NCBI RefSeq assembly: GCF_000226295.1
Contig: NC_016024.1
Span: forward strand, 355,501 to 419,500
From: Chloracidobacterium thermophilum B
GTDB taxonomy: Bacteria > Acidobacteriota > Blastocatellia > Chloracidobacteriales > Chloracidobacteriaceae
Direction of reading: 5' to 3'
Length of the DNA: 64,000 nucleotides
The notes below the pieces were generated by a model, which made no database searches, was not told where the DNA came from, and worked only from the letters and a program-made list of their open reading frames with translations. A program made the translations under genes and the position numbers. Shown one piece after another: positions 2,027 to 10,781 of this stretch; position 1 is the stretch's first letter; every line of letters starts with the position of its first letter.

Positions 2027-2499
2027 AAGAAATCTGCGTTACGTTACAGTTCCCTGACCGGTTGGGGGTGGGGTGCCGGTTTCGTGGCCGGTGTGGTGGG
2101 GGAAGCCGGAGGGGCGTGGTCATGTCCGTCGGTATCGGTTCCGGAACCGTTTTCTTTGCCGCCGAAAAAGAAACCATACTCAAAGACAATCCCGCTTTTG
2201 CCGTTGCCTGGATGATTTGGAATTTTGTAAGCCACGACAATGATCTGGTTTTTCGTTGGGTGAAAGAGAATGCCGGGGGTGAAAAAGCCAAAGTCATGCC
2301 GGCCGTAAAACCACTCGCCCAGCAGGTAAAGCCGGTGCCTGATGAGGGGCTGCTCAACTGCGGCGATAGGGTGAACGGTCGTTTTCTTGAAGAGGTTTTT
2401 CGTGCCAAAGCTGACGCCGGCTGTCAGGCGGGTATGCGTTTGGGGCACCACCAGGCTGCCGTGGGAGCCGGACTCTAGCTTGCCGTATAGTACGCGATA

Positions 2500-3132
2500 G
2501 TGTATAATAATGCTCATGGAAAGCACTATAAGCACAGGCAAGGCGCAAAACTCCTTGGTGTCCCGGTCAAGACGTTGCAGCGTTGGGAACGCGAAGGAAG
2601 GCTAATTCCGGTGGCCCGAACGGACAGCAACCGCCGCCTCTACACTGAGACGCAGGTCCGTGAGTTCATCGGTTTGCGGCAGGCCAACCATGCGCCAACA
2701 AAGCTTGTCGCCTACTGTCGGGTATCGAGTGCGGCGCAGAAGCCGGACCTGGCGGATCAGCGCAAAGTGCTGGAAGCGTTCGTGGTGGCGAAGGGATTGG
2801 CGGGGGTCGGGTTTATCGAGGAAGTGGGCGGCGGGCTGAACTTCAGGCGCAAGCGGTTTCTGGCCCTTATGGACGAGAGCGGGCGACGGGAAGTCAGGAT
2901 GCTGATCCTCGCTCACCGGGACCGCCTCACCCGTTTCGGCTTTGAGTGGTTCGAACATTACGCCCAAACCCATGGCTGCGAAGTGCTGGTACTCAACCAG
3001 GAACGGCTGTCTCCCGAACAGGAAATGGTGCAAGACTTAATGACCATCGTGCACTGTTTTTCGTCTCGGCTATACGGTTTGAGGAACTATCGAAAGAAGT
3101 TGGATGCGAGCGCTGAAACAGGATGTGAATGA
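2500..3132 (+). CDS. tnpA: IS607-type serine recombinase, N-terminal frame lesion
   Basis: Catalyses excision and integration of the element. The frame has a MerR-like winged helix (LLGVPVKTLQRWEREGRL, about residues 18-36) and a resolvase domain with the catalytic-serine motif YCRVSS. These are followed by LILAHRDRLTRFGFEWFE and a C-terminal helix DLMTIVHCFSSRLYG. The natural start appears to be ATG 2510 (MLMESTISTGKA), seen in the short copy. Here one G is missing after AAGGCG near 2544, so that start leads to a stop after about 30 codons. The downstream frame is open only from GTG 2500, which overlaps a TATAAT-like -10 box and has no ribosome binding site. The gene may therefore be inactive or poorly translated. 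Confidence 0.8.
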   Translation: MYNNAHGKHYKHRQGAKLLGVPVKTLQRWEREGRLIPVARTDSNRRLYTETQVREFIGLRQANHAPTKLVAYCRVSSAAQKPDLADQRKVLEAFVVAKGLAGVGFIEEVGGGLNFRRKRFLALMDESGRREVRMLILAHRDRLTRFGFEWFEHYAQTHGCEVLVLNQERLSPEQEMVQDLMTIVHCFSSRLYGLRNYRKKLDASAETGCE

Positions 3133-3150
3133 CGTCAAAAAGGCCCAACA

Positions 3151-4491
3151 ATGCAACTAACCCACAAGATCGCTCTTTGTCCGACTCCTGAGCAAGTGGA
3201 CTACTTCAAGCGCGCCTGCGGCACGGCGCGGCGTGTTTGGAACTGGGCGCTCAATGAGTGGAACAGGCAATACGCAGCAGGCGGCAGGCCAAACGCCATG
3301 GCGCTCAAAAAACAGTTCAACGCCATCAAGTACACCGACCCGCAGTGGCTCGATGAGAACGGTCGGCCTTGGTTGCGAGACATTCACCGGGATGCCCACG
3401 CCCAGCCGTTTGCCCATCTCGCCAAAGCCTGGGAAAGATTCTTCACCGACCTCAAGGCTGGCAAAGAGGCACACGCACCGCGCTTCAAGAAAAAGGGGCG
3501 CTGCCGCGACAGCTTTTACGTAGCCAACGACAAGTTCCGTCTGGTCGGTAAGACGATCCGCCTACCCAAGATCGGCGAAGTCGCCATGACCGAGGAACTG
3601 CGATTCAAAGGAAAGATACTGGGCGCAACGGTTTCTCGCACCGCGGATCGTTGGTTTGTGGCCATACAGGTCGAGGTGCCTGATGCGCAATTTTATCGGC
3701 GTCGCACGTCGCACGAGGTCAACGGCATCGACCTGGGCATCAAGGCTGCCGCAACGGTCTCCAGCGGTGAAGTCATCGAGGCGCCAAAGCCGCTCAAAGC
3801 AGCGCTGCGCCGTCTGGAAATCCGTAGCCGACGTCTCAGCCGCAAGCTGGAAGCCGCCAGGAAGGCAGCAGGATTTGAACGCCATGCCCGCCTGCCTGAA
3901 GGAACGCGCCTGCCGGTCTCGAACAACCGGCAGAAGTCCGCTGCGATATTGGCAAGGCTCTATGCCCGCATGGCCAATATCCGAGCGGATTTCACCCACA
4001 AGCTCACGACTCGACTCTGCCGCGAAAACCAAGCGTTGGTGATCGAGGATTTAAACGTCAAAGGGATGCTGCAGAACGAGAAACTCGCCCGCGCCATCTC
4101 TGACGTGGGTTTTGGGATGTTGCGCTCGCAGTTGGAATACAAGGCCCGGCGCTACGGTACTCAGCTTACCATCGCTGATCGCTGGTATCCAAGCAGCCGA
4201 CTGTGCTCCATCTGTGGCTGGAAGAACGAGGCGCTGACATTGAGAGATCGAACATGGGTGTGTGCTCAATGTGGTGCGCACCATGACCGTGACCTCAATG
4301 CGGCGCTGAACCTGAAACGGCTGGCAACCGAAACTGCCCTACCCGTGGCGAGTCCGTCCAGCAATGGCGGCGCTGCGGCGGGGACCGTCCCCGCCGTAGT
4401 CGGGAAAGTCACGCCTGTCAGATACGACGGTGGTCGACAGGACACGTCGGGGCAGGAAGAGAACCGTGCGCACTTTTGCGCACATTCTTGA
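3151..4491 (+). CDS. tnpB: TnpB, RNA-guided nuclease of the IS607 element
   Basis: A 446-residue TnpB. The N-terminal helix-turn-helix region (MQLTHKIALCPTPEQVDYFK) leads into a split RuvC fold with acidic residues in NGIDLGIKAAATVSSG, ALVIEDLNVKGML and HHDRDLNAALNL. A zinc ribbon CSICGWKNE...CAQCGAHH lies near residues 350-375. TnpB proteins are known to be RNA-guided DNA endonucleases whose guide RNA is encoded at the element's right end. The last 60 or so residues are low in family resemblance and probably overlap that RNA. It starts 18 bp after tnpA and has no visible lesion. Confidence 0.92.
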   Translation: MQLTHKIALCPTPEQVDYFKRACGTARRVWNWALNEWNRQYAAGGRPNAMALKKQFNAIKYTDPQWLDENGRPWLRDIHRDAHAQPFAHLAKAWERFFTDLKAGKEAHAPRFKKKGRCRDSFYVANDKFRLVGKTIRLPKIGEVAMTEELRFKGKILGATVSRTADRWFVAIQVEVPDAQFYRRRTSHEVNGIDLGIKAAATVSSGEVIEAPKPLKAALRRLEIRSRRLSRKLEAARKAAGFERHARLPEGTRLPVSNNRQKSAAILARLYARMANIRADFTHKLTTRLCRENQALVIEDLNVKGMLQNEKLARAISDVGFGMLRSQLEYKARRYGTQLTIADRWYPSSRLCSICGWKNEALTLRDRTWVCAQCGAHHDRDLNAALNLKRLATETALPVASPSSNGGAAAGTVPAVVGKVTPVRYDGGRQDTSGQEENRAHFCAHS

Positions 4492-4497
4492 TAGCAG
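4300..4497 (+). ncRNA. Candidate TnpB guide RNA (omega/re-RNA) region
   Basis: The 3' end of tnpB and the element's right end are where TnpB-associated RNAs are encoded in characterised elements. This stretch contains GGGGACCGTCCCC and, at 4466-4483, the hairpin GTGCGCA-CTTT-TGCGCAC just before the end. It differs from the short copy at only two positions apart from a 12-bp duplication there. The placement is inferred; the 5' boundary is not defined. Confidence 0.35.
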
Positions 4498-6060: not shown

Positions 6061-8061
6061 ATGCCGAATCCCTACCTCAACCGGGTTGCGATTCGTGACC
6101 CCGCCCAGTTTTACGGACGGCGGCGGGAAGTGGCCCGCATTTTTTCCCGCCTTGGCGCTGACCGTCCGCAGTCGATCGCCGTCGTAGGCGAACGGCGCAT
6201 CGGCAAGTCGTCGCTGTTGAACTACTTATGTGTCCCGGAAGTGCAGCGTCAGTACCTTGCCCGTCCCGACGAATATGTGTTCGTCTTCATGGACCTTCAG
6301 CAGCGCCGGCGGGTGGCACTCGATGATTTCCTTCAGACCTGGCTGGTGGAAATTCAGCGCAGGGCTGCCCTTCCCGTGACCGAAAAGCCGGGCTTCGACG
6401 GTATCTATGCCGCCCTCAACCAGTTGCGGGCCGAGCGGCGCAAGCTCATCGCCATTTTCGATGAGTTTGACGTGCTGACCTCCAACCGGTCATTTTCGGC
6501 CGACTTCTTTGCCTTTCTGCGTTCCCTGGCCAACAACTACGAAGTCGCTTACGTGACTTCTTCCGGGCGTGAACTCCAGGAACTGTGTCACGCCGACCAG
6601 ATTGCTGACTCGCCCTTTTTCAACATCTTCACGAACATTTATCTGCGGGCTTTTCCCGACGCGGATGCTTATGAACTCATCACCCGTCCATCCGAACAGA
6701 GCGGCCTTCCACTGGCCCCTTATGCGGAGGACATCCGGCGTCTGAGTGGCAACTTCCCGTTTTACCTGCAAATCGCCTGCTCGATTTATTTCGAGCAGCT
6801 CCAGGATACGGGCCGCCTCGACATCCCGGCCATCGAGGAAGCCTTCGACGATGAAGTGCGGGGACACTTTCGCTACCTCTGGGAGCATTTTTCCGCCGAT
6901 GAGCGTGCCGTCTGCCAAGCAGTGGCCAACGGTCAGCCGGTGCTGCGCGAGCACACCTACGTGTTTGAGGATTTCAAGCGCGCCGGCTACATCCTCACTG
7001 AGTCAGATGGCCGTCCCCGCTGGTTCTCCCGGCGTTTTCTGCCCGTGGTGTTGCATCCCGGGCGTGGTGGCAGCGGTGAGTATGTGGCCGTCCCGCCGAC
7101 CCTTGAAATGCCGGCGGCCGCGCGGCGCGCCACAGCACAGGACACACCGCGTCGTCTTGGCGTGGAGGGGCCATCGCCTGTGCCTTCCCACCTGGGACGT
7201 TTCGAGATCATCGAGCGGCTTGGCGGCGGCGGTATGGGAGAGGTGTTTCTGGCCCGCGATGCCGAACTGGGGCGCAAGGTCGCCATCAAGGTGCTCAAAG
7301 CCTGCTATGCCGATCAGTCGGAAACCCGCCAGCGTTTTCTGCGGGAAGCGCGGATGGTATCGAGCCTCAACCATCCCCACATCGCCACCCTGTACGAAAT
7401 CGGGGAAGCCAACGGGCTGCCCTATCTCGTGATGGAATATGTGCGGGGCAAAACCATCGCCCAGTGCCTCCGGGAACAGGGGCCGTTTCCCTGCGCTGAA
7501 GTGTGTCGGATTGGCGCCCAGGCCGCCGAAGGGCTGGCTGCCGCCCATGCCATTGGCGTCATTCACCGCGACATCAAACCTTCCAACCTGCAACTCGATG
7601 CCCAGGGCAACGTGCGCATCATTGACTTTGGCTTGGCCAAGCTCGATGCCACGGTGGGACGAACACACTTCTCCAGTTCGGACGACCACCTGCGCGCCGT
7701 GTCGGACATCACCGAAACAGGGGTTCTGGTTGGAACCGTCACCTACATGTCACCCGAACAGGCGGCCAATGACGCCCAAGTGTCGCTGGCTGGAGATGTG
7801 TTTTCGTTGGGCATCGTACTATACGAAATGACGACCGGGCGGCTGCCGTTTGATGGGAAGTCCTACTACGACGTGATGGATGCCATTTTGCATGCCACCC
7901 CTGCGCCCATTCGGGACTGGCGGCCCGACGCGCCAGCGGCGCTGGTGCGCGCGATTGACGCCGCCCTTGCCAAAAAACCGGAGGCGCGTCCCACGGCAGC
8001 CGCCCTGGCCAGGATGCTGCGGCAGGCAGCTCAATCTCCGGCTCTTGCTTCGCTCACCTGA
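6061..8061 (+). CDS. P-loop ATPase fused to a Ser/Thr protein kinase
   Basis: A 666-residue signalling protein. The N-terminal half is an ORC/STAND-like ATPase: FYGRRREVARIF, Walker A VVGERRIGKSSLLNYL near residue 40 and Walker B KLIAIFDEFDVL near 130, then a helical winged-helix-like region to about 340. A short linker leads to a Hanks-type kinase from about residue 378. It has the glycine loop LGGGGMGEVFLARD, VAIKVL, the catalytic loop VIHRDIKPSNLQL, IIDFGLAKL and GTVTYMSPEQAA. No membrane segment or sensor domain is visible at the C-terminus, so the ATPase part probably provides the input. The last 31 bp overlap the end of the convergent STT3-like gene. Substrates are unknown. Confidence 0.9.
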   Translation: MPNPYLNRVAIRDPAQFYGRRREVARIFSRLGADRPQSIAVVGERRIGKSSLLNYLCVPEVQRQYLARPDEYVFVFMDLQQRRRVALDDFLQTWLVEIQRRAALPVTEKPGFDGIYAALNQLRAERRKLIAIFDEFDVLTSNRSFSADFFAFLRSLANNYEVAYVTSSGRELQELCHADQIADSPFFNIFTNIYLRAFPDADAYELITRPSEQSGLPLAPYAEDIRRLSGNFPFYLQIACSIYFEQLQDTGRLDIPAIEEAFDDEVRGHFRYLWEHFSADERAVCQAVANGQPVLREHTYVFEDFKRAGYILTESDGRPRWFSRRFLPVVLHPGRGGSGEYVAVPPTLEMPAAARRATAQDTPRRLGVEGPSPVPSHLGRFEIIERLGGGGMGEVFLARDAELGRKVAIKVLKACYADQSETRQRFLREARMVSSLNHPHIATLYEIGEANGLPYLVMEYVRGKTIAQCLREQGPFPCAEVCRIGAQAAEGLAAAHAIGVIHRDIKPSNLQLDAQGNVRIIDFGLAKLDATVGRTHFSSSDDHLRAVSDITETGVLVGTVTYMSPEQAANDAQVSLAGDVFSLGIVLYEMTTGRLPFDGKSYYDVMDAILHATPAPIRDWRPDAPAALVRAIDAALAKKPEARPTAAALARMLRQAAQSPALASLT

Positions 8062-10322
8062 GTCAGCCGCAGCGTCCGCCCCTGGGTGATGTCGGCTTCA
8101 GTGGCCACGGCGGCAAAGACACCTTCCGGGGTCACGATGCGGTAGGGGGCCAGGGCAGACAGCGTGGTGAGCGGCGACCGCTCCTGGGCGTACGGAACCC
8201 GCCGGACAAAGCGCCCTTCAGCATCGGCCACGACTTCATCCAGGTAGTCGAACTCGCGTTGGAAGTACGTCCGAATGCGTGTGCTGATCTGCACCCGCGC
8301 GCCGGGGGTGGTCTGTCCGGTGATGAGCGCGCCCGGCACACGCTCGAAGACCTTGGCGGCCGCATGCGGCTGCTTGAACAGAGGATAGTCCGTTTCAAAG
8401 TCGCTTTCATACACCAGACGGAGTTGGGTCAGCGCTGCGTCACCCCGGGGAATACCTTCATCGGCCACCAGCCGGGCATAGAGCGAAGCTTTCATCTGTT
8501 CGTTCCAGTCTTCCCAGGGCGGTGACGTTCCCGTAACCGGGTCCCAGAGGGCATTGTACACGGTCGCTTTGGGCAGGAGTGGTGTGATGAGAACGTAGCG
8601 CACCCGGCGCGCTTCCATAAGCTGAAATGATGCTTCTGGCGGGAACGCCAGCATAGCCGCGCCGTCGCGGATGCCGAGGCGCAGCGGTTGGGTGTGGCCG
8701 AGTGGGGACGCCACGGTTGGCCGGCCGGCAATCCCGATGACCCAGTGGCCGGGCGTCCAGTCGCACAAAACGGCGTAATCGTGGGCCTGGTCGCCCTGTG
8801 GACTCGTCGCCGGCGTATGCGTTGCCAGCCAGCGCAGAGTGGGTTCGGCATCCACGAAGGCTCCGGTCGGTGAGACGACATAGGTTGGTGCGCGAATGGT
8901 GAAACTAAGCGTCGGGGCCAGCATTCCGGCAAACAGCACGGCCGGCAGGATGACCCAGAGGAGCGTTTGATGTTGTGACCAGCGGGCCAGCCAGTCCGGC
9001 AGCCGAACCAGTGCCAAGGCGATGACCACTGCAAAGGGGACAGCAAACAGGCCGCTGAACTTGAGCTGAAGCAGCGCCAATCCCGTCGTGAGCAGGGAGA
9101 TGAACCAGAGCATCCAGTGTGGAACGGCGTCCGGCCGGGACTTCTGCCACGCCTCCCATGCTACGGCTACCCACGCCAGCGGCAGCAGCCAGAGAAAGCC
9201 GGTGTAGTTGTTTGTGATGTCGGTAAAGGATAACCGGAACAATGGCTGACTCTCGAAGATCGTCGCCAGCCACGGATCGGCGGCACCGATGTGCTGCACC
9301 CCGTACTGCACGAAATACCAGACCTCACCCAGTTCCGCGCGGGGCAGGACACCGATGCCTAACCCGACCCAGGCCAGAAACCACCCGCTCTGCCAGTGCC
9401 GGCTTTGGCTCCTGCCCTTCCCTCCCGTCGTCCAGCCCAAGGCCGCCAGTGTTGCCCCAGCCGCCAGCCAACCGGTCAGCCAGGCCGTCGTGAGCGCCGG
9501 GTTGACACCGTGGAGTTCAGCTATCCGGGTCGCGGCAAAGGGGGCCAGACCGACGAGAAGGGTCAGCCACGCCCAAAGGCTGACGCGAAGATGCGCCTGC
9601 CGGGCCGCCGGCTTGGAGCGGTACAGAAGCCATCCCCCCAGCGTGACCAGGGCGTGCAGCCCGACGAGCAGGGGCAGGATGGTGGCACAGAGCAGCCCGA
9701 TGGCGAGGGCGCTGCCAGCCACGACTCCGTGCCGGTTCGCCGGATGCTCCCGCACCATAGCCCACAGGTAGAGTCCCGTGCAGAGGGGTTCAAAGACGTG
9801 GTGATCCACATAACCAATGGCGCACACCACCCAGAGCGATGGCAGCCAGGCGAGGATAAGTCCGGCAGTCACTCCGGCCCAGACACCGCCCAGGCGGGTG
9901 GCGATGACATAGCCCAGGCAGGGCGTGAACGCTCCGAGGAGCGGCGTCAGCCAACAGGCGACGGCCGTTGTCCAACCCTCATCCGGCCGGCCGCTCCCCT
10001 GGAAAAGGGTGTAGGTCGCCTGCGCCACAAAGGCATAGAGCCAGTCGAACCCAAAGGGCCAGTTGACGCGCGCGCCATCGGGAAAGTTGACGTAGTGATC
10101 CACGTCGGGCACCTGCAGGCCGTGCGCGACCGCGAAATGAATGCGGCGCAGGTGGTAAAACGAGTCCGTCGAAATCGGAAAGATACCGAAATCTGTAAAA
10201 ACGCCGTCAAAATTCGACAGCCGAACAGCAAAGCTCAGGAAATAGAGGAGCGCCATCATCACAGCCGACCGGTACAGCAGGCGGTGCATACCGGTCGGCA
10301 GCGAAGCTGGCGTTGTTGTCAT
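8031..10322 (-). CDS. STT3/AglB-like membrane glycosyltransferase
   Basis: A 763-residue, multi-pass GT-C protein resembling oligosaccharyltransferase catalytic subunits, which move a lipid-linked glycan to Asn outside the membrane. An early loop carries STDSFYHLRRI, like the first acidic motif, and GYVDHHVFEPL is the second. A degenerate WWDYG-like segment reads CDWTPGHWVIGIAGRPTV. The C-terminal domain (KVFERVPGALITGQT...GRFVRRVPYA) is like the one found in archaeal AglB proteins. I chose ATG 10322 because longer frames run into the adjacent IS fragment. The deleted IS607 copy ends 10 bp upstream, and no ribosome binding site is seen in between. Confidence 0.75.
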   Translation of the reverse strand: MTTTPASLPTGMHRLLYRSAVMMALLYFLSFAVRLSNFDGVFTDFGIFPISTDSFYHLRRIHFAVAHGLQVPDVDHYVNFPDGARVNWPFGFDWLYAFVAQATYTLFQGSGRPDEGWTTAVACWLTPLLGAFTPCLGYVIATRLGGVWAGVTAGLILAWLPSLWVVCAIGYVDHHVFEPLCTGLYLWAMVREHPANRHGVVAGSALAIGLLCATILPLLVGLHALVTLGGWLLYRSKPAARQAHLRVSLWAWLTLLVGLAPFAATRIAELHGVNPALTTAWLTGWLAAGATLAALGWTTGGKGRSQSRHWQSGWFLAWVGLGIGVLPRAELGEVWYFVQYGVQHIGAADPWLATIFESQPLFRLSFTDITNNYTGFLWLLPLAWVAVAWEAWQKSRPDAVPHWMLWFISLLTTGLALLQLKFSGLFAVPFAVVIALALVRLPDWLARWSQHQTLLWVILPAVLFAGMLAPTLSFTIRAPTYVVSPTGAFVDAEPTLRWLATHTPATSPQGDQAHDYAVLCDWTPGHWVIGIAGRPTVASPLGHTQPLRLGIRDGAAMLAFPPEASFQLMEARRVRYVLITPLLPKATVYNALWDPVTGTSPPWEDWNEQMKASLYARLVADEGIPRGDAALTQLRLVYESDFETDYPLFKQPHAAAKVFERVPGALITGQTTPGARVQISTRIRTYFQREFDYLDEVVADAEGRFVRRVPYAQERSPLTTLSALAPYRIVTPEGVFAAVATEADITQGRTLRLTQVSEARAGD

Positions 10323-10332
10323 GTCAAGCTGC

Positions 10333-10714
10333 CTGCTATCAAGAATGTGCGCAAAAGTGCGCACGGTTCTCTTCCTGCCCCGACGTGTCCTGTTGACCAC
10401 CGTCGTATCTGACAGGCGTGACTTTCCCGACTACGGCGGGGACGGTCCCCGCCGCAGCGCCGCCATTGCTGGACGGACTCGCCACGGGTAGGGCCGTTTC
10501 GGTTGCCAGCCGTTTCAGGTTCAGCTTCAGGTTCAGCGCCGCGAGGCAGCGGTTGCTGTCCGTTCGGGCCACCGGAATCAGCCTTCCTTCGCGTTCCCAA
10601 CGCTGCAACGTCCTGACCGGGACACCGGGAAGTTTTGCCGCCTTGCCTGTGCTGATCGTGCTTTCCATGAGCATGATTATACACTATCGCGTACTATACG
10701 GCAAGCTAGAGTCC
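10333..10714 (-). mobile_element. IS607 internal-deletion derivative (mini-IS)
   Basis: A 382-bp relative of the element at 2470-4497, in minus orientation. It keeps about 170 bp of the left end through the recombinase HTH region and about 210 bp of the right end, including the tnpB tail. The junction lies at GCCTC|GCGGCGCTGAAC, and both parents carry CCTC there, so microhomology deletion is likely. A 12-bp unit CTGAACCTGAAG/A is duplicated next to the junction. It could move only if a recombinase is supplied in trans. Confidence 0.88.
10339..10674 (-). pseudogene. Fused recombinase HTH - TnpB tail frame in the mini-IS
   Basis: A 111-codon open frame beginning MLMESTISTGKAAKLPG. It joins the complete MerR-like HTH of the serine recombinase (about residues 1-43) directly to the last 65 or so residues of TnpB. 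The recombinase catalytic domain, the TnpB RuvC core and the zinc ribbon are gone. The frame stays open across the deletion. If translated, it could be an end-binding HTH peptide, but nothing shows that it is. It preserves the intact recombinase start missing from the full copy. Confidence 0.7.
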
Positions 10715-10781
10715 GTCTCCGCCCTAAAGGATGAAACGACGCCACCCTTGCCGCCTGAAAACCGGGGCCACTGTTCCGGCT

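Follow-up and report, generated by a model that had tools for sequence, protein, structure and literature searches.

PATEs are non-autonomous relatives of TnpB elements of the IS200/IS605 type. In the IS607 family, a guide RNA (reRNA) of about 150 nt was described for ISXfa1 together with the TAM GGG (PMC10711439), and the structure of the ISFba1 system was obtained with a 207-nt reRNA including a 20-nt guide (PMC11061315). The latter source reports the TAM of IS607 TnpBs as 5'-AGGAG in 18 of 22 strains and as GAGGG in 4, and identifies RAGATH-18 RNAs as the reRNA of IS607 TnpBs. Since 64% of these RNAs (10,258 of 16,029) adjoin a TnpB, solo copies are implied for the other 36%; no discussion of them was found there, and its main text uses neither 'start codon' nor 'ribosome'. 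MITE-like repeats resembling DNA upstream of IS607-family genes have been reported from Staphylothermus marinus (PMC2678158).

The window analyzed in this study, a stretch of 64,000 nucleotides from the genome of Chloracidobacterium thermophilum B (two contigs, 3.70 Mb), contains a short IS607 derivative, L021, that keeps both element ends but no complete transposase and thus is a non-autonomous mini-IS607 (Table 1). This character, including the retention of both ends, had been recognized in the initial annotation and was borne out by alignment with nine full copies. The annotated extent of 382 bp (10333-10714) required correction to 384 bp. The previous left edge of the element was 2 bp short, because the junctions are set by the empty site of a second mini, L022, in the related genome G004.

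Table 1. Features of the mini-IS607 in the window and related elements of the same genome.
Feature	Position	Strand	Remarks
Mini-IS607 (L021)	10333-10716	-	384 bp including right-hand AG core; from alignment with 9 full copies and from the G004 site that lacks the sister mini
Left flank GGAG, target/TAM-like motif; its AG is the recombination core	10717-10720	-	9/9 full copies and 2/2 minis of this genome, 7/7 left ends of G004
Promoter-like pair TTGCCG-17-TATAAT, left end	10676-10704	-	1 found vs 0.1 expected; consensus match only
Fused frame, 111 codons: TnpA HTH residues and TnpB C-terminal tail	10339-10674	-	
tnpA-derived part of fused frame, ending at joint 10543/10542	10543-10674	-	
Kept tnpB 3'-end plus right end, 210 nt (198 nt if the 12-bp duplication is not counted)	10333-10542	-	
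12-bp tandem duplication directly 3' of the joint	10514-10537	.	
Predicted omegaRNA (reRNA) scaffold: frozen synonymous codons and covarying helices	10333-10515	-	Match to model R1, 225.9 bits
Putative guide segment, first 20 nt past the right end, holds the host start codon	10313-10332	-	Position inferred from PMC10711439 and PMC11061315
Host gene, hydrophobic protein; ATG 10 nt past the right end of the mini	8031-10322	-	
Full IS607 copy (coordinates include left GGAG); intact TnpB frame, frameshift in tnpA	2464-4497	+	
Second mini (L022)	C1:296625-296947		323-bp match; 325 bp under the same end rule

A nucleotide search of this genome with the 382-base query, in which 40 of 54 candidates were scored, returned 20 pieces, namely L021, L022 and the two ends of each of nine full copies, which are about 2.03 kb long; the similarity of the window element to these IS607 copies far exceeds chance. 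Searches with the TnpB protein, in which all 45 candidates were scored, and with the omegaRNA model concurred. The full copies code for an IS607 TnpA and a TnpB, according to profile searches done on copy L027. The TnpA matched NF033518 (E 1.8e-59, 200 bits at a cutoff of 110) as well as PF00239 and PF00376, consistent with an HTH and a serine recombinase domain. The TnpB was above the cutoff of NF040570, matched PF07282 (C-terminal TNB domain), and reached 246 bits against NF038280 (IS607_TnpB), under the cutoff of 350 of this profile. It contains the motifs GIDLG, VIEDL and DRD, which we take to be the RuvC residues. No inverted repeat linking the element ends was found in the repeat analysis. 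With TnpA, a TnpB with RuvC and TNB parts, and a 2-bp core without inverted repeats, the parent element fits the IS607 family.

Both frames are intact in L026 and L027, and the TnpB frame in 7 of the 9 full copies. The full copy in the window, 5.8 kb from the mini, carries a 1-bp deletion early in tnpA; it is a candidate source of TnpB in trans. A 17-bp tandem duplication in the HTH region of tnpA is common to L028 and L029, which may mean that a defective tnpA was copied in trans. Loss of the regular tnpA stop in L024 and L030 leaves an open frame of 360 codons overlapping tnpB.

All nine full copies and both minis share the left GGAG and the right end TGATAGCAG. In G004, GGAG precedes 7 of 7 left ends and the right end is kept in 6 of 7. 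One full copy of this genome (L079/L117, G004:C2:482502-482682) lacks about 30 nt of the right end, including the terminal hairpin. The site of L022 is empty in G004 and reads GCGGAGGCAACT; the insertion leaves AG at both junctions, and the core is therefore AG. Split as CGGAG|GCA, the empty site is Shine-Dalgarno-like, and it fits the published IS607 TAM AGGAG, as the GGAG target does in general. The L021 element is absent from G004 as well, where the junction surroundings are too diverged for a base-by-base reading. Among seven relatives outside the genus in which the left end was sought, an exact GGAG was present in L081, L082, L084 and L086; L080 has GGAA, L083 has CGAG, and L085 is ambiguous. 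The bases directly after GGAG are AC and AA in the minis versus CC in 16 full copies.

The two minis differ in their tnpA-side cut but not in their tnpB breakpoint. In L021, tnpA sequence ending in ...GCCTC is joined to GCGGCGCTGAACC of tnpB, and in L022 a tnpA sequence ending in ...AACGCG is joined to the same tnpB base; the last 198 nt are common to both. The parental bases on the two sides of the joint have none in common, in L021 or in L022. A single deletion via CCTC microhomology, as first suggested for L021, was rejected, since it would have retained the AAT of the parental CCTC-AAT-GCGGCG that is missing from the CCTC-GCGGCG of the mini. The initial annotation had proposed to look for further copies with the same junction; another mini does exist, but the joint of L021 was found only once in the genome, as was that of L022. 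The 111-codon frame fusing the HTH to the TnpB tail was confirmed, with a Pfam MerR match (E 2.7e-10) in its HTH part. Since L022 carries a TAG within the HTH codons, this open frame is not a common property of the minis. A sequence nearly identical to the promoter-like pair of L021 is present in the full copies. Relative to a consensus built from 15 full copies, L021 shows 10 differences in 178 positions on the left and 1 in 198 on the right (p 0.004), and L022 shows 6 in 131 and 0 in 198 (p 0.004). The contrast is weaker in the 15 full copies pooled, with 28 differences on the left versus 11 on the right, and full copy L026 has it too (8 vs 0). Right-end gene conversion is possible in these IS607 copies.

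The right end is predicted to be an embedded omegaRNA (reRNA) of TnpB, as the location and size of a constrained zone fit the published IS607 reRNAs. Ten tnpB genes, six of them betaproteobacterial, two from Nitrospirae and one each from Myxococcota and this genome, were compared over their last 100 codons. Where the amino acid is the same, codon identity increases from 0.60 to 0.88; the best-fitting change point is codon 389 of 446, which lies 183 nt ahead of the right end. In a wider comparison L084 and L086 are out of frame upstream and L087 partly so; our conclusion therefore rests on the comparison of the last 100 codons. In the consensus fold from an alignment of 13 right ends, nine helices with 54 pairs were counted, in which 96.9% of the cells are paired and 15 pairs are doubly changed, compared to 6.6 in shuffles (0 of 500 reaching this value). 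These counts leave out 7 of 61 predicted pairs, namely all those with a start at columns 2-25. Sliding of the partners lowers the pairing of the consensus fold to 35-44%. Single-sequence folding gave no signal (z -0.97); the signal comes from the alignment only. No family was found at the Rfam gathering threshold in ten loci, among which the solo locus L185 was not included, and a lax threshold yielded only weak matches to other families with E up to 5. RAGATH-18 has an Rfam model, and it likewise gave no match at gathering threshold in the ten loci.

A covariance model of this right end, R1, was used for genome searches. It detected 11 copies in the genome holding the window (9 full, 2 minis) and 7 copies plus a weak 27-nt piece but no mini in G004. 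In the rest of the genus, G001 had one weak match (20.9 bits), and the four other genomes had none. A match was obtained in each of the seven genomes or records from which the relatives come. Matches were further obtained in at least 8 of 150 genomes of the order of G044 (G044 included), in at least 4 of 369 genomes of its class (including G044 and one weak match), in G138 alone among 6 genomes of its family, and in G042 alone among 2 genomes of its phylum. In the large groups 6 or 16 candidates per genome were scored, so that copies may be missed.

In total, fifteen right ends without an upstream tnpB body were found, including both minis. In 11 of these 15 deletion derivatives, homology to TnpB-linked copies starts 179-209 nt from the right end (L021 193, L022 198, L135 189, L137 185, L138 185, L144 181, L145 209, L150 180, L154 184, L155 179 and L157 182 nt); the value for L021 is that of the gapless match, owing to its duplication, and its actual joint is at 198. 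These 11 solo loci comprise the two minis and nine loci elsewhere, the latter including Tepidiphilus, Nitrospirae, G138 (five loci) and G092 (L145); the loci outside our genome were detected with the omegaRNA model, which favors complete ones. The four others are short remnants that keep 81 nt (L140), 38 nt (L141), 89 nt (L151) and about 130 nt (L188, from a tblastn match starting at residue 407). L151 lies at the same place as L100, with a decayed tnpB start fused to the 89 nt of right end. Not counted as solo were L153 and L156 (larger tnpB pieces), L139 (contig edge), L105, L147, L148 and L189 (weak), L146, which adjoins a distant TnpB (42%), and L152 (31 bits), an apparent remnant of the L146-type group whose codons resemble tnpB from residue 367 onward; inclusion of L152 would change the proportion to 11 of 16.

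Left ends were recognizable by eye in L021, L022, L135, L138 and L140; inspection by eye recognized none in the five G138 loci or in L145 and no clear one in L137. L135 has GGAG five bases outside CTCTAG and GGTAG on both sides. In Tepidiphilus, one joint, ATGG(A/G)AAATT|CAACGG, occurs at the two loci L137 and L138, of which L137 is interrupted. The interruption at about 1110-1500 of L137 is an insert of about 390 bp nested in the mini-IS607, with GC-rich palindromic stretches near its ends, and resembles an IS200/IS605-type derivative. A search for tnpA in the nine solo loci outside our genome gave no match. These loci cannot make TnpB, because the TnpB tail sits at most in short open frames. 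Their cells are paired to 92.7%, with 14 doubly changed pairs versus 7.8 in shuffles (0 of 500), and the five G138 loci alone have 11 versus 5.6 (1 of 500), in both cases from a model-fitted alignment that leans towards structure. Of the solo loci, L145 has the weakest match, at 100 bits, and many of its pairs are broken. No cognate TnpB was found in the draft genomes G138 and G092, where the best TnpBs are 32-33% identical. In L080, L081, L082, L083, L085 and L101, TnpB is kept and tnpA is degenerate or was not found. Such relatives represent a TnpB-only stage beside the omegaRNA-only stage.

All 11 solo loci have a start codon 5-12 nt downstream of the right end (10 ATG, 1 TTG). For a systematic count, an ATG was sought 3-16 nt past the right end, with an open frame of 60 codons or more, or one that reaches the locus end. 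It was found for both minis, for 2 of 9 full copies of the same genome and for 2 of 6 in G004, the excess being weak among these full copies (4 of 15). Elsewhere, 13 of 17 TnpB-linked copies and 8 of 9 solo copies (9 of 9 with TTG) have such an ATG. L187 qualifies only via an ATG at +16, L136 falls outside the rule with an ATG at +2, and L102 (Cupriavidus), which is not among the 17, has no qualifying ATG. As a control, all GGAG sites gave 34 of 333 in the window and 41 of 584 in the loci of the relatives; the control takes sites on both strands, genic and intergenic. Part of the excess may be due to purging of insertions within genes. In G004, GGAG precedes the ATG of each host gene, at 10 and 12 nt, so that the insertion target in practice often appears to be a Shine-Dalgarno sequence. 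The start of the L022 host gene was recovered by motif in G004 and our genome only, and for the L021 host gene no such GGAG was seen in the inspected sequence lines of more distant genomes of the genus. The genes behind the five G138 loci include, by eye, rpe- and hpf-like ones. An identity of TAM and Shine-Dalgarno sequence would account for the placement of the elements at start codons. In the literature searched, mostly without subscription papers, no statement linking the two was found for TnpB or IS607; in PMC13418256 a Shine-Dalgarno sequence marks a fliC leader, and in a paper on IS607 the ribosome binding site mentioned is that of a construct.

We consider it probable that the locus is a non-autonomous IS607 element cut down to its ends and a guide RNA, with resident TnpA and TnpB serving it in trans. 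Such a mini would consist of a left end with the promoter-like pair, a tnpA stub, and a right end with a complete omegaRNA scaffold. Transcription from the left end would run through the scaffold into the flanking gene and, after processing, provide a guide RNA in which host sequence adjoining the insertion, namely the first codons of the host gene, serves as guide. TnpB of the full copies would bind this RNA in trans. In an element-free allele the guide target would adjoin GGAG as TAM, and cleavage followed by repair would restore the element by homing, whereas the mini insertion would part target and TAM, leaving its own allele without an adjoining TAM. The mini would thus gain a retention benefit without any protein, and TnpA of the full copies could mobilize it. 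Because guide RNA and TnpB in trans would restore the element, trimming of tnpB to the omegaRNA border, and no further, would be favored. Having unlike tnpA cuts and one tnpB breakpoint, the two minis support trimming to this border. Comparable trimming in unrelated bacteria, mostly just ahead of a start codon, suggests that the guide RNA rather than a small DNA-binding peptide lets such remnants persist.

Several observations speak against this reading. The solo omegaRNAs of G138 and G092 have no cognate TnpB, so that a trans-acting TnpB cannot explain them today, the four remnants of about 38-130 nt show that the omegaRNA is not always kept, and each of the two minis is the sole copy of its joint found in the genome. 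The single joints and the existence of shorter remnants are also what is expected if an inserted full copy lost its middle by ordinary deletion and the omegaRNA was kept incidentally; G004, empty at the L022 site and without a mini, is compatible with deletion after insertion, too. Such a dead remnant is rather unlikely in our view, because two unlike tnpA cuts stop at one tnpB nucleotide, the same border is seen again in other phyla, and the solo loci contain covarying pairs. Alternatively, the structured right end may stall replication, so that deletions stop at its 5'-border without selection. Stable predicted helices at the right end and the identical breakpoint of the two minis would agree with a mutational hotspot, but breakpoints range over 179-209 nt and neither mini has its joint at the base of one of the counted helices. 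Moreover, mutation bias does not explain the compensated changes among solo copies, unless these are older than the deletions, which renders a hotspot improbable.

The initial annotation suggested that an HTH-only peptide could act as a repressor or as a competitor of TnpA at the ends. L021 indeed combines an open frame and its MerR-type HTH match with a promoter-like pair ahead. As a common feature the peptide was rejected, and as a reason for retention it is not supported, given the stop in the HTH codons of the sister mini and the nine solo loci elsewhere without a tnpA match; we regard this explanation as highly improbable. The part common to all these loci is the omegaRNA, which the initial annotation had overlooked. 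Where a cognate TnpB is lacking, the solo loci are relics, or else leader RNAs that serve another purpose. The compensated changes favor some use, but they may predate the loss of TnpB. It is tempting, though doubtful, to extend this to the present IS607 group, with guide-RNA-only copies as a recurrent end state in which the omegaRNA outlives TnpB, becomes the leader of a gene and is selected for its structure without cognate TnpB, as in G138. In this case the scaffold would be placed at the ribosome-binding site and the start codon inside the guide, because the TAM would be the Shine-Dalgarno sequence. Natural deletion derivatives of this kind allow one to ask which part of a TnpB transposon is kept by selection. 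If guide-only minis persist via TnpB in trans, as we favor for the mini in the window, TnpB would be a shared retention system that can be exploited by parasites of the parent element.

The elements described here resemble ISXfa1 (PMC10711439) and ISFba1 (PMC11061315) in having a serine-recombinase TnpA, a TnpB, a guide scaffold at the right end and a GG-rich target. They differ from these published systems in the core, which is AG here and GG there, and in the overlap of the scaffold with the tnpB 3'-end, since the scaffold of the ISFba1 group is described as separate from the coding sequence (PMC11061315). In contrast to both, the minis are without a complete protein gene and their scaffold has no Rfam family match. 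RAGATH-18 is another RNA family than our scaffold, with 97.8% of its strains belonging to the Firmicutes (PMC11061315). Like PATEs and the S. marinus repeats, the minis are short derivatives that may be mobilized in trans. The S. marinus repeats, however, carry inverted repeats, and no mention of a retained guide RNA was found for them in PMC2678158. TldR proteins, nuclease-dead TnpB repressors with guide RNAs, likewise involve domesticated TnpB-type guide RNAs near genes, but TldR loci include the protein and our solo loci do not (PMC13418256). Solo reRNAs, as implied by published counts, and short non-autonomous TnpB-related elements are already known. The repeated trimming of IS607 to ends and omegaRNA, this omegaRNA family and the position at start codons are new as far as the literature was searched.
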